Below, piece after piece: positions 57,289-60,064 of a stretch of DNA of 64,000 nt. Source of the stretch: Christiangramia echinicola DSM 19838 (GTDB lineage: Bacteria; Bacteroidota; Bacteroidia; Flavobacteriales; Flavobacteriaceae). Position 1 is the first letter of the stretch; each line of letters starts with the position of its first letter. The notes beneath the pieces were generated by a model, which saw nothing but the letters and a program-made list of their open reading frames with translations, had not been told where the DNA came from and made no database searches. The stretch lies in contig NZ_AUHG01000016.1 in NCBI RefSeq assembly GCF_000423065.1, forward strand, positions 1 through 64,000. The letters are read 5' to 3'. The position numbers were made by a program, and so were the translations under genes.

Positions 57289-57305
57289 ATTTTTTGCATT
57301 TTTCA

Positions 57306-57313
57306 CAAAAATA
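57306..57313 (-). promoter_or_regulatory. -7 box of the Gfo/Idh/MocA gene
   Basis: TATTTTTG on the minus strand, a perfect TAnnTTTG, 17 bp before the ATG at 57288; it decides between two possible starts. Confidence 0.55.
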
Positions 57314-57423
57314 GCATTTTGATATTAAATACTTTATAAAATTGGGCCAAATCCCAGCGGCTAATTGCTTGGGATAAATCAGCACGAATGCCTAATTTTA
57401 CAGTCTGAATAAAGCATACTAAC

Positions 57424-58065
57424 TTGAAAGATACTTACAGACACCAGGGGAAAAGGCAGCAATTGGTGAGAACCGTGAAGAAAAAAGGGATCACCGATGA
57501 GAAGGTACTAGCCGCTATTGGGAAGATTCCGCGCCACCTGTTCATGGATAGTAGTTTTGAGGATCATGCATACCAGGATAAGGCTTTTCCTATTGCGGCA
57601 GATCAGACCATATCCCAGCCATATACGGTGGCTTTTCAGTCTGAATTGCTAGAAATTAAAAAAGGGGAGAAGGTGCTGGAGGTTGGTACGGGAAGCGGAT
57701 ACCAAACCGCTGTGCTTTGCGAATTAGGCGCAAAAGTTTACAGCATAGAACGGCAGCGTGAGCTTTATAAAAAAACGAAAACTTTCCTGGCGAAAATTGG
57801 CTACAGACCTAAATATCTAAGCTTCGGTGATGGATATAAGGGAATCCCTGAATATGCGCCTTATGAAAAGATCATCGTTACGGCTGGAGCACCGGTGGTG
57901 CCTAACGACCTGTTAAGTCAGTTAAAAGTAGGAGGAAGGCTGGTGATCCCGGTAGGAACCGAGGTACAGACCATGACCTTATTTGTTAGAAAATCTGCTA
58001 AGGAATTTGATAAGAAGGAATTTGGAGCCTTCAGGTTTGTGCCGCTGCTTGAGGACAAGAATTAG
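57424..58065 (+). CDS. pcm: Protein-L-isoaspartate O-methyltransferase
   Basis: A 213-residue SAM-dependent repair enzyme that methylates isoaspartyl residues in aged proteins. The start KDTYRHQGKRQQLVRTVKKKGI matches Bacteroidota Pcm and requires a TTG start codon at 57424. The family motifs are PRHLFMDSSFEDHAYQD, ISQPYTVAFQSELLEI, VLEVGTGSGYQTAVLCELG and IIVTAGAPVVPNDLLSQL. It is full length. An array of palindromic repeats begins 36 bp after its stop. Confidence 0.93.
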   Translation: MKDTYRHQGKRQQLVRTVKKKGITDEKVLAAIGKIPRHLFMDSSFEDHAYQDKAFPIAADQTISQPYTVAFQSELLEIKKGEKVLEVGTGSGYQTAVLCELGAKVYSIERQRELYKKTKTFLAKIGYRPKYLSFGDGYKGIPEYAPYEKIIVTAGAPVVPNDLLSQLKVGGRLVIPVGTEVQTMTLFVRKSAKEFDKKEFGAFRFVPLLEDKN

Positions 58066-58101
58066 TTTTTTAATTGATAATTGATTTTTTGCTTTAAGCT
58101 A

Positions 58102-58181
58102 TCATTCTGAACGAGACGAAGTATATTGAAGAATCTCGTGTTCTGATTAGGATGAGACTCTTCGCTTTGCTCAGAGTGACA
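58102..58181. repeat. Palindromic repeat E1 of the 58-kb array
   Basis: Left arm cattctgaac...gaagaatctc and right arm gagactcttcgctttgctca ending gagtgac are imperfect inverted complements, about 80 bp. It is the first of five elements between pcm and the M28 peptidase gene. Confidence 0.8.
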
Positions 58182-58347
58182 TTTAAAAGAACGAATATTA
58201 ATTGAATTTGTCCATTCTGAATGTGGTGCAACGGAATGAAGAATCTCTTGAGTTCATGATAGGATAAGACTCTTCGCTTTGCTCAGAGTGACAAGAAACT
58301 ATTTTTTGTTGTCCATTCTGAATGTAACGCAGTGGAATGAAGAATCT
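58149..58347 (+). repeat. 199-bp direct repeat, left copy
   Basis: Runs from E1's right arm through element E2 to E3's left arm. It matches 58696-58894 without gaps at a constant offset of 547 bp, with about 14 mismatches counted by eye. The two copies bracket the GIY-YIG gene. Confidence 0.85.
58210..58293. repeat. Palindromic repeat E2
   Basis: tccattctgaatg...ggaatgaagaatctc paired with taagactcttcgctttgctc...agtgac. It lies inside the left 199-bp direct repeat and corresponds to E4 in the right copy. Confidence 0.8.
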
Positions 58348-58728
58348 TCTTAGGCTTTGAATAAAAATGGTTAAATTCAGGGATGCTCAGCAATGATTCA
58401 CAATCCTATTTTACTTACATACTTACCAATAGGAATAAAACAGTCTTATACATTGGAGTAACCAATAATCTTCAGAGACGCTTAATTGAACATCATCAAG
58501 GGGCCAGATTACGAGCTAAAACCTTTACTGCGAAATATCATTGTATTTTTCTTATTCATTATGAGAAATTCTCCTGGGTTCAGGATGCGATTGCCAGAGA
58601 AAAACAATTGAAAGGTTGGTTAAGGTCAAAGAAGGTAGGTCTGATAAATGAAAATAATCCAGAATGGAAATTTTTAAATGATGAATTTAGTCTATAGGAT
58701 GAGACTCTTCGCTTTGCTCAGAGTGACA
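58311..58728. mobile_element. Palindromic repeat E3 split by a GIY-YIG gene
   Basis: The left arm (58311-58347, gtccattctgaatg...gaagaatct) and the right arm (58698-58728, gatgagactcttcgctttgc...) are the two halves of one palindromic element. Instead of the usual 10-25 bp centre, the loop holds a complete 104-codon nuclease gene. The gene starts 35 bp after the left arm and its TAG stop is formed at the junction with the right arm. This looks like a gene-bearing version of the repeat. Mobility is an inference. Confidence 0.6.
58383..58697 (+). CDS. Small GIY-YIG endonuclease embedded in a repeat
   Basis: A 104-residue single-domain GIY-YIG nuclease. The two core strands are TYILTN and VLYIGVT (the GIY and YIG equivalents), followed by NNLQRRLIEHHQG with the catalytic Arg. 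The metal-binding Glu is in AIAREKQLKGWLRSKK. All catalytic positions are present, so it should be active; such solo domains are common in Bacteroidota, but their role is not established. It lies exactly between the arms of a palindromic repeat and within a 547-bp duplicated unit, suggesting it processes or spreads that repeat (inference). Confidence 0.88.
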   Translation: MLSNDSQSYFTYILTNRNKTVLYIGVTNNLQRRLIEHHQGARLRAKTFTAKYHCIFLIHYEKFSWVQDAIAREKQLKGWLRSKKVGLINENNPEWKFLNDEFSL

Positions 58729-58894
58729 TTTAAAAGAACGAATATTAATTGAATTTGTACATTCTGAATGTAGTGCAGTGGAATGAAGAATCTCTTGAGT
58801 TCATAATAGGTTAAGACTCTTCGTTTCTCTCAGAGTGACAGGAAACTATTTTTTGTTGTCCATTCTGAATGTAGTGCAACGGAATGAAGAATCT
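58696..58894 (+). repeat. 199-bp direct repeat, right copy
   Basis: Second copy of 58149-58347, running from E3's right arm through E4 to E5's left arm. Together with the left copy it could recombine to delete the GIY-YIG gene, leaving a plain repeat array. Confidence 0.85.
58757..58840. repeat. Palindromic repeat E4
   Basis: gtacattctgaatgtagtgc...gaagaatctc paired with taagactcttcgtttctctc...agtgaca. The right arm is slightly decayed relative to the other copies. Confidence 0.8.
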
Positions 58895-58939
58895 CATGTT
58901 CTGATTAGGATGAGACTCTTCGCTTTGCTCAGAGTGACA
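58858..58939. repeat. Palindromic repeat E5
   Basis: gtccattctgaatgtagtgc...gaagaatctc, centre atgttctgattag, right arm gatgagactcttcgctttgc...gtgaca. The centre and right arm are nearly identical to E1. The AT-rich motif tctcaatactcaattct follows at about 58965. Confidence 0.8.
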
Positions 58940-58981
58940 GTTAAATTCAGTCTAACATCTCACTTCTCAATACTCAATTCT

Positions 58982-59012
58982 ACAAAAAAAAGCCCCGTAA
59001 AAAAACGAGGCT
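58982..59012 (-). terminator. M28 peptidase gene terminator
   Basis: On the minus strand agcctcg pairs with cggggct (one G-T pair), followed by a run of eight T. It lies 24 bp after the peptidase stop and insulates it from the repeat array. Confidence 0.8.
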
Positions 59013-59035
59013 CTATAAATTATTTACCGGATAAA

Positions 59036-60064
59036 TTACTTCCCGGCAGTAACACTATCTTCAGCTTTGTCTACGACAATTCTCGCATCACGGTTTGCGA
59101 TCTCCCAGGCAGTTAGAAATACCAGTTGAGTTCTTTTAGCTAACAGATCGTATTCAATCTTATCTGGAGTATCTGTGTGCTTATGATAGTCAGCATGAGT
59201 TCCGTTGAAATAGAAAATAATCGGAATATTGTTCTTAGCAAAATTATAGTGATCACTTCTATAGTAGAAACGATTAGGATCATTCTCATCATTATATTTA
59301 TAATCAAGATCCATTTTTACATGTTTCTCATTCACACCTTCACTTAATAAATGAAGATCTGTACTTAGCTTATCACTGCCAATAAGGTATATATAATTAT
59401 CGTTACCCTCATGTGCAGGATCTATACGGCCAATCATATCTATATTTAGATTAGCAACCGTATTTGCTAAAGGAAAAATTGGCTCATCTGTATAGAATTT
59501 AGAACCTACCAGCCCTTTTTCCTCACCGGTTACATTAAGAAACAAAATAGATCTTTTTGGAGTAAATCCATCTTTGCTTGCTTTTACAAAAGCTTCGGCA
59601 ATCTCAAGCACTCCAACCGTTCCGGAACCGTCATCATCTGCACCATTATAGATCCTTCCCTGATCGTCTATACCTACATGATCATAATGAGAGGAAATTA
59701 CCAGGATCTCTTCTGGTTTTTCTGAACCTTTAAGAAATGCAACTACATTTTCTGTAGGTTTTACATTTCCTCTTTTAAAATAACTTACAGGAACTTCCTG
59801 GAAGTAATCATCACCGCCTAGTGGAGATGGAAGATTCAGGCTTTTATATTCATTTTTTAAATACTCTGCGGCTTTCTTTTGTCCTGGTTCTCCAGTCTCA
59901 CGACCTTCGAATTCATCGCTGGCGAAAGTATAAAGATGTTCTTTTAGGTCTTCTGCAGTAATAGTATTTGCATATTCCATGGGATCTGCATCTTCAACTT
60001 TACCATTTTGCGCGCTGCAGGATAGAAGGATGGCTGGAAAAGCCAAAAGCAATATTTTTCTCAT
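59036..60064 (-). CDS. M28 family metallopeptidase, exported
   Basis: A 342-residue zinc aminopeptidase-like enzyme with a lipoprotein-type signal (ILLLAFPAILLSCSAQ, Cys16). The peptidase domain (about 85-325) has the zinc ligands in SSHYDHVG, YNGADDDGSGTVG, TGEEKGLVGS, NIDMIGRID and HKHTDTPDKI. All ligands of the two-zinc M28 site are present. It probably digests peptides outside the inner membrane. It is transcribed alone. Confidence 0.92.
   Translation of the reverse strand: MRKILLLAFPAILLSCSAQNGKVEDADPMEYANTITAEDLKEHLYTFASDEFEGRETGEPGQKKAAEYLKNEYKSLNLPSPLGGDDYFQEVPVSYFKRGNVKPTENVVAFLKGSEKPEEILVISSHYDHVGIDDQGRIYNGADDDGSGTVGVLEIAEAFVKASKDGFTPKRSILFLNVTGEEKGLVGSKFYTDEPIFPLANTVANLNIDMIGRIDPAHEGNDNYIYLIGSDKLSTDLHLLSEGVNEKHVKMDLDYKYNDENDPNRFYYRSDHYNFAKNNIPIIFYFNGTHADYHKHTDTPDKIEYDLLAKRTQLVFLTAWEIANRDARIVVDKAEDSVTAGK

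Follow-up and report, generated by a model that had tools for sequence, protein, structure and literature searches.

In the window, i.e., the whole 64,000-nt stretch of Christiangramia echinicola DSM 19838 DNA that was analysed, a solo GIY-YIG nuclease gene lies between pcm and an M28 peptidase gene, and the interval between these two carries five left and five right palindromic arms in strictly alternating order, the gap of the third arm pair being filled by the nuclease gene (Table 1). The sequence-only reading of this locus had described five palindromic elements between pcm and M28, the third one split by a 104-codon GIY-YIG gene with its stop codon at the arm junction, and flanks aligning without gaps at offset 547 with about 14 mismatches. 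All of this held: arms and gene were found at the listed coordinates, the stop codon ends 4 bp ahead of the core of right arm 3, and the direct repeats align gaplessly over 199 columns at that offset, differing at exactly 14. The nuclease gene is intergenic between intact neighbouring ORFs and not located in an intron or intein, and an Rfam scan of 57300-59100 gave no match, group I introns included. Local duplication is the simplest explanation of the five-pair array.

Table 1 Features of the pcm-M28 locus (positions refer to the window).
Feature	Position	Strand	Remarks
pcm gene	57424..58065	+	context and synteny anchor; name from the sequence-only reading, no family scan
Left arm 1	58103..58135	+	CATTCTGAA...TGAAGAATC
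Direct repeat copy 1	58149..58347	+	right arm, left arm, right arm, left arm
Right arm 1	58155..58181	-	minus-strand reading: TGTC tag and ACTCT...AGAGT hairpin
Left arm 2	58213..58245	+	
Right arm 2	58267..58293	-	
Left arm 3	58314..58346	+	upstream partner in the gene-bearing pair
Solo GIY-YIG nuclease gene	58383..58697	+	104 aa; PF01541 match, E 3.5e-17
Direct repeat copy 2	58696..58894	+	14 mismatches in 199 vs copy 1
Right arm 3	58702..58728	-	downstream partner in the gene-bearing pair
Left arm 4	58760..58792	+	
Right arm 4	58813..58840	-	3 mismatches vs the other right arms
Left arm 5	58861..58893	+	
Right arm 5	58913..58939	-	
M28 peptidase gene	59036..60064	-	second synteny anchor; name from the sequence-only reading

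Read on the minus strand, all right arms of the window show TGTC, the short hairpin ACTCT...AGAGT and then CTC or CTT. This arm type is local and nearly confined to the pcm-M28 locus, where five of its six matches in the 3.5-Mb genome (≤3 mismatches) are located. Folding as DNA, assessed for two single arms and for three complete pairs (80-82 nt), gave z values of -1.3 to +0.2 against shuffles; these imperfect palindromes fold weakly as single strands and not clearly better than shuffles, so that repetition and comparison carry the case and folding energy does not. Since the right-arm type is local and folding is weak, the window alone is insufficient, and it is the comparison with other loci that makes the case.

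The window protein belongs to the GIY-YIG nuclease superfamily, judged by its domain match and the Tyr/Tyr/Arg/Glu residues, which we take to be the catalytic set. Y12, Y23, R33, H37 and E73 are all present, and across 131 proteins Y23, R33 and E73 are conserved in every one and Y12 and H37 in 130; the catalytic role of these residues is presumed and the activity inferred. The nuclease genes are under purifying selection, as shown for the 19 of 31 close pairs in which dN/dS was computable (0.04-0.39), the other 12 being saturated at synonymous sites. The AlphaFold2 model consists of one compact domain (pLDDT 89, pTM 0.81). Its closest solved relatives by sequence are the UPF0213 structures 1zg2 (E 4.6e-16) and 1ywl (E 5.9e-14), of which 1zg2 ranked first by Foldseek and second by VIA in the structure comparison. 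UPF0213 and SLX1, followed by I-TevI and UvrC, are the nearest solved structures, with VIA Z scores of 5-7 that are middling, yet above those of unrelated rows (≤3.6). A nuclease cutting branched DNA, as SLX1 does, would suit hairpin or cruciform arms, which remains an inference. NCBIfam and PADLOC scans returned weak partial matches only.

The protein is similar to UPF0213/YhbQ in sequence and fold, but E. coli yhbQ, the sole gene of that family checked, has no GTCA hairpin within 250 bp. With SLX1 it has the GIY-YIG fold in common (VIA Z about 7, middling); SLX1 works together with SLX4 and has further domains. I-TevI, a GIY-YIG homing endonuclease, has the catalytic fold in common (Z 6.2), and the window gene likewise splits a recognition-like site; however, this gene is free-standing, encodes 104 aa and has no separate DNA-binding domain in the model. 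I-TevI carries an extra DNA-binding domain.

A PF01541 profile search of the whole genome of the strain gave ten places, four in long open frames (221-612 aa) and six in small genes. All six small genes lie between inverted palindromic arms, one of them containing a stop codon. The gene at C4:140939 has arms of the type GTCATTTCGA...GAGAAATCT, the tandem pair C1:779834/780214 combines GTCACCCTGAACTTGATTCAGGGTCT with GTCATGCTGAACTTGATTCAGCATCTC, and the tandem pair C4:143784/144390 combines GCACTGAGCCTGTCGAAGTGC with GGACTTCGACAGGCTCAGTCC; because the arm type differs by gene, different nucleases of one genome sit in different repeats. The inner arms of the last pair lack the GTC tag, which counts against the model proposed below. 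We also noted that the whole arm-gene-arm unit can occur in tandem copies, i.e., at G011:C1:1374364-1375626 (L047) and, in the genome of the strain itself (G000), at G000:C1:779834-780432 (L003) and G000:C4:143784-144608 (L001), with the copy at C1:779834 carrying the stop codon.

As a check, the sequence-only reading had named the enrichment of solo GIY-YIG genes near the repeats. We analysed regions around solo genes from 39 genomes (the strain and 38 relatives) together with 20 long GIY-YIG control loci, whose frames of about 600 aa we take to be uvrC. Of at least 96 GIY-YIG matches with open frames <170 aa, 77 solo genes were analysed (60 fetched regions and four stretches of the strain's own genome), leaving out 19 mostly weaker matches. 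Enrichment and pair tests were restricted to class I, i.e., genes with a predicted length ≥90 aa (n = 55), without short or broken genes, and including two that are probably not repeat-associated (G014:C65:9777 and G002:C1:245373). A generic inverted-repeat flank score (medians 20 for the 77 solo genes vs 12.5 for 810 control ORFs) was dropped, because high scores also arose when the flanks of one solo gene were mismatched with those of another, and the analysis was therefore moved to tagged hairpins, counted when starting with GTCA and having a perfect 5-bp stem. These hairpins reached 7.95/kb within 100 bp of class I genes and 4.38/kb at 100-200 bp, compared with 0.41-0.49/kb at 0.5-8 kb and 0.30/kb at the presumed uvrC loci. 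Within 200 bp, 139 GTCA hairpins stood against 6-45 for 13 other tetranucleotide tags. When an inward-pointing arm was demanded within 200 bp on each side (strict test), inverted pairs enclosed 22 of 55 solo genes vs 3 of 817 control ORFs (≥150 aa).

The same picture emerged beyond the relatives, in a far set with one genome per species, for which a four-protein alignment served as query and the best 80 of at least 576 confirmed loci were used. As these are the top matches to a clade-centred query, this is not a random sample of phyla; record titles name Bacteroidetes, Alpha-, Beta-, Gamma- and Deltaproteobacteria, Chloroflexi, Omnitrophota, several candidate phyla, Ruminococcaceae and others. 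GTCA hairpins occurred at 7.92/kb within 100 bp vs 0.34-0.46/kb beyond 500 bp, and near the genes 176 GTCA hairpins were found vs 3-51 for 16 other tags. Strict inverted pairs were present in 38 of the 74 loci with 200 bp on both sides, compared with 4 of 701 control ORFs. Outside Bacteroidetes, an arm stood on at least one side in 40 of 47 and an inverted pair in 23 of 47, this split being made by record title and taking in Ignavibacteriales, Chloroherpetonaceae and bacteria without a group in the title. A looser hairpin rule weakened the contrast in the relatives (14/55 vs 5/817) and yielded more pairs in the far set (45 of the 75 loci with 150 bp on both sides vs 19/701). A strict arm in the expected orientation was absent on both sides in 11 of 55 genes of the relatives and 12 of 74 of the far set. 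The commonest arm across phyla is GTCATTCC(T/C)GCGNAGGC(A/G)GGAATCCA. Where an arm was found, the median gap was 19 nt from its end to the start codon on the upstream side and 12 nt from the stop codon to its beginning downstream, and this close spacing gives gene and arms the appearance of a single compact unit. Overall, the enrichment is strong for tagged hairpins of this general kind.

Viral contigs contained 56 related loci, and among the 33 examined (E 3e-17 or better) an arm was present on at least one side in 18 and on both sides in 11. Three of the viral-contig relatives (L152, L153, L154) are flanked by GTCACCCCGGACYTGTTCCGGGGT arms, which makes phages or prophages possible carriers of the unit.

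Apart from class I, we observed another class of solo GIY-YIG genes, which are shorter (about 78-86 aa) and located directly downstream of a tRNA gene or of a tRNA 3' part. Behind them the tRNA 3' part is duplicated, in several instances together with the terminator of the tRNA, and the genes are often in tandem (four in G014:C65). Loci are L063 (G011:C3), L072 and L076 (G025:C1), L094 (G014:C65), L085 (G004:C10), L086 (G005:C3), L102 (G002:C1), L105 (G014:C80) and L320 (G153). ARAGORN found tRNAs at nine of twelve short-class loci and none in L102, L103 and L105; in L102 and L105 there are tRNA-like 3' parts only. This class resembles a different GIY-YIG element, from the same nuclease superfamily but targeting tRNA genes.

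The repeat type follows the relatedness of the nucleases. For 56 solo genes (≥88 aa) of the relatives and the strain itself, compared in pairs without shared outer flanks (non-syntenic), flank similarity correlated with protein identity (Mantel r 0.51, as against 0.117 at most in 2000 permutations). Pairs from different genomes shared a repeat (score ≥18) in 2-3% of cases at 25-45% identity, in 37% of 76 at 55-65% and in 80% of 15 at 65-80%, and below 65% identity gene pairs of the same genome were no more alike in their repeats than pairs from different genomes. Genes inspected in other genera agree with this: MKxYYVYILKCSDxTYYTGFTSNL-type proteins and close variants (G133, G182, G043, G173) adjoin GTCACTTCGAGTG-like arms, and in G001 and G019 arms of this kind likewise accompany related proteins. 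Stems around constant cores were compensatory, being complementary in 17 of 20 and 97 of 106 cases (six and five distinct stems). For the TCGAGCG...AGTCGAG type the covariation count (0/37) is uninformative, the search pattern being one base out of register, and the TGAGCCTGTCGA type had two occurrences only. In the GTCACCC clade (G005, G003, G001, G014, G021 and the strain's own copies at C1:780 kb), we further observed arms with a common loop core and systematically different stems, a GTCACCC arm upstream and a GTCATGC arm downstream of one gene forming heterodimers. The preference for heterodimers had no obvious explanation according to Di Nocera et al. 2013 (PMC3733652).

The sequence-only reading would have been refuted if the repeats were equally abundant in genomes lacking such genes, which is not so, albeit with real exceptions. 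In the genus set (24 genomes including that of the strain; three repeat types counted, reversed patterns zero everywhere), class I genes were taken from 55 rows with E 1e-20 or better and numbered 0-6 per genome, gene and copy counts being tallied by hand. The six gene-free genomes held 0, 0, 0, 1, 1 and 15 repeat copies vs 4-105 in the 18 genomes with genes (Mann-Whitney p 4e-4; Spearman correlation of gene number with copies 0.64), the exception with 15 copies and no class I gene being G012. Across 149 genera of the family (inferred to be Flavobacteriaceae), the T-type repeat occurred at least twice in 19 of 21 with a T-clade gene vs 27 of 128 without. The T-clade set was hand-picked (identity from about 52% upwards, E of about 1e-28 or lower) and contains one gene with a stop (G083); the T repeat was absent in two of its 21 genomes. 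Conversely, G113, G119, G133, G153 and G173 have 16-27 T-type repeats and no T-clade gene at the cut-off, and G043 and G135 carry broken relatives of the gene. Gene loss after spread, or help from another clade, might explain these exceptions, neither of which is shown. Two genomes (G039 and G040) are incomplete, the co-occurrence statistics are uncorrected for phylogeny, and both this test and the enrichment test used several repeat types, not the local type of the window.

A comparison of strains for presence or absence of the 547-bp unit had also been suggested; here, the pcm-M28 locus was compared across the genus. All 24 genomes of the genus have a pcm match, and in the 23 with a close copy (84-100% identity) up to 1.5 kb downstream was read; M28 follows pcm in 22 of these and was not seen in G002. 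A window-like GIY-YIG gene is located there only in the strain itself and in G019 (2 of 23), where the gene is 61% identical and the stems are TCTCT...AGAGA vs ACTCT...AGAGT in the window. In the 20 other genomes with M28, the distance from pcm to the end of the M28 match was 101-416 bp in 18, about 557 bp in G009 and about 840 bp in G011. Arms of other repeat types occur at the pcm locus of G010, G011 and, without M28, G002. G010 carries a 52%-identical gene together with the window's repeat type 23 kb from its pcm, a different locus whose neighbours have no match in the window. The intergenic DNA of the other species is too diverged for exact insertion points to be read, so that empty and filled sites could not be compared at a precise junction. 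Apparent relics of single arms were seen in the pcm-M28 intergenic region of G020 (L287) and G021 (L280).

Most REPs sort into the GTAG and CGTC superfamilies (Di Nocera, De Gregorio, Rocco 2013, PMC3733652). CGTC REPs have a CGTC or TGTC tag, a stem almost always starting with AT and a tail that is mostly CCA, and mostly form head-to-head pairs; in families 1-4 the stems have 8-9 bp and the loops 4-5. They include the neisserial dRS3 and the rickettsial RPE-4 and RPE-6, occur in Bradyrhizobium and Bacteroidetes, G. forsetii among them, and 'apparently lack a dedicated transposase' (PMC3733652). Among 182 arms beside solo genes, GTC, which the search itself required, is preceded by T in 108 cases and by C in 49 (157/182), the stem starts with ATTCC in 73 and the tail is CCA in 73. 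The stem, loop and tail expected of CGTC REPs are seen in the commonest type, e.g., GTCATTCCTGCGNAGGCAGGAATCCA, but not throughout, other arms having shorter stems, longer loops or tails like CTA or CTC. The arms beside solo genes thus include ones that agree with CGTC REPs in (C/T)GTC tag, AT stem start, CCA tail and head-to-head pairing. While no transposase gene was associated with CGTC REPs in the 2013 paper, the arms studied here flank solo GIY-YIG genes. The window arms have only the tag in common with families 1-4, showing a 5-bp stem starting with AC, a long loop and the tail CTC, and we regard them as a divergent relative of CGTC REPs rather than a member of these families. Beyond what the sequence-only reading contained, our data show that repeat type tracks nuclease clade, that the pattern spans phyla and that many of the repeats match the CGTC REP superfamily.

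A link between GIY-YIG enzymes and REPs was not reported in the open-access literature searched, a search that did not cover preprints and most subscription papers. The term 'GIY' was not found in PMC6006769 or PMC12306157, and a gene table for Moraxella catarrhalis (PMC9465073) lists RayT and a GIY-YIG endonuclease in separate rows with no link drawn. RAYT/REPIN systems combine GTAG REPs with a Y1 HUH transposase. The units described here resemble them in that a small gene lies between inverted tagged hairpins, gene-less pairs occur elsewhere and enzyme and repeat co-diversify, but the enzyme is GIY-YIG and not HUH, and the tag is (C/T)GTC and not GTAG, the window's right arms starting with TGTC.

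We propose that the solo gene and its arms form a REP-like mobile unit in which two GTC-tagged hairpin arms, inverted relative to each other, enclose the solo GIY-YIG nuclease gene. The nuclease would act on repeats of its own type; it would probably recognise the two hairpins of a pair in extruded or single-stranded form and cut near the outward-facing GTC tags, after which host repair would copy or move the pair, whether or not it contains the gene. Arm pairs without a gene would depend on the nuclease as non-autonomous copies, in the way that REPINs depend on RAYTs. What is shown for this model are the inverted flanking arms, the repeat type tracking nuclease relatedness, the co-occurrence across genomes, the conserved catalytic residues, purifying selection and the absence of a detected Y1 enzyme in the genome of the strain. 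Hence the claim of the sequence-only reading that the solo GIY-YIG protein is the partner of the repeat family is supported beyond the window locus, as association and specificity, whereas cutting or moving of the repeat by the protein is inferred only and exceeds the evidence, and its term 'domesticated' is not supported. On balance we lean, by a modest margin, towards this model, and solo GIY-YIG nucleases are strong candidates for the missing partner of CGTC REPs, in a RAYT-like role filled by an unrelated enzyme; cleavage, cut position and mobilisation are inferred, without any experiment.

The main rival, which remains possible, is a homing parasite: the repeats spread by other means, and the nuclease gene homes into a palindrome, splits its target and invades unoccupied copies via double-strand-break repair. 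In its favour, the gene separates the two arms of a pair, I-TevI and other homing nucleases of the GIY-YIG type have the same fold, and several genomes have many repeats and no gene. Against it, the repeats are nearly absent in five of the six gene-free genomes of the genus, the repeat type changes with nuclease relatedness, no Y1 enzyme was detected in the genome of the strain (other transposase classes not being covered), and the model is one compact domain without the additional domain familiar from I-TevI. That RAYT/Y1 transposases move the repeats, with the GIY-YIG gene as an accessory, is all but ruled out. Although a Y1 protein occurs in 8 of the 24 genus genomes, PF01797 (Y1 HUH transposase) had no match in the genome of the strain nor in 15 others of the 24, repeat-rich G000, G003, G005 and G001 being among these 16, and only 3 of 11 Y1 loci have any GTCA hairpin within about 400 bp, one of the 11 resembling the repeats described here.

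We consider it unlikely that the protein is a host maintenance enzyme resolving repeat hairpins or cruciforms in an SLX1-like or YhbQ-like manner, with the arms as regulatory or terminator elements. The best structural matches, SLX1, which cuts branched DNA, and UPF0213, speak for this reading, as does E. coli yhbQ, which is annotated as 'DNA damage response nuclease' and stands without such hairpins; however, patchy presence, tandem copies, varying loci and decayed copies with stops give these genes the look of mobile ones. Even less plausible is a bystander scenario in which repeats and small genes both pile up in permissive intergenic DNA. Flanks of control ORFs are indeed slightly richer in hairpins (0.67 and 0.93/kb) than distant DNA, but flanks of solo genes lie roughly ten-fold above those of other ORFs, the arms are inverted on the two sides and the repeat type follows protein relatedness.

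REP-like palindromes are common in bacterial chromosomes, and while the GTAG half has an enzyme (RAYT), the CGTC half was left open in the 2013 survey. A bolder reading, for and against which we see equal grounds, holds that throughout bacteria the CGTC REP superfamily has solo GIY-YIG nucleases as its dedicated mobilising enzymes; taken as a whole, and at that same strength, it includes elements known only as repeats, i.e., dRS3 of Neisseria and RPE-4/6 of Rickettsia, where the genes were not examined. The nuclease family described here, of about 95-105 aa, occurs next to such repeats in several phyla and tracks repeat type, which makes the CGTC question testable with small proteins and short hairpins. 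If the bolder reading is true, it would describe a kind of miniature mobile element driven by a GIY-YIG nuclease and not by a DDE or HUH transposase, with several mutually specific nuclease-repeat pairs coexisting in one genome, and, if the nuclease moves the repeats, it would represent a new enzyme class for bacterial miniature mobile elements.
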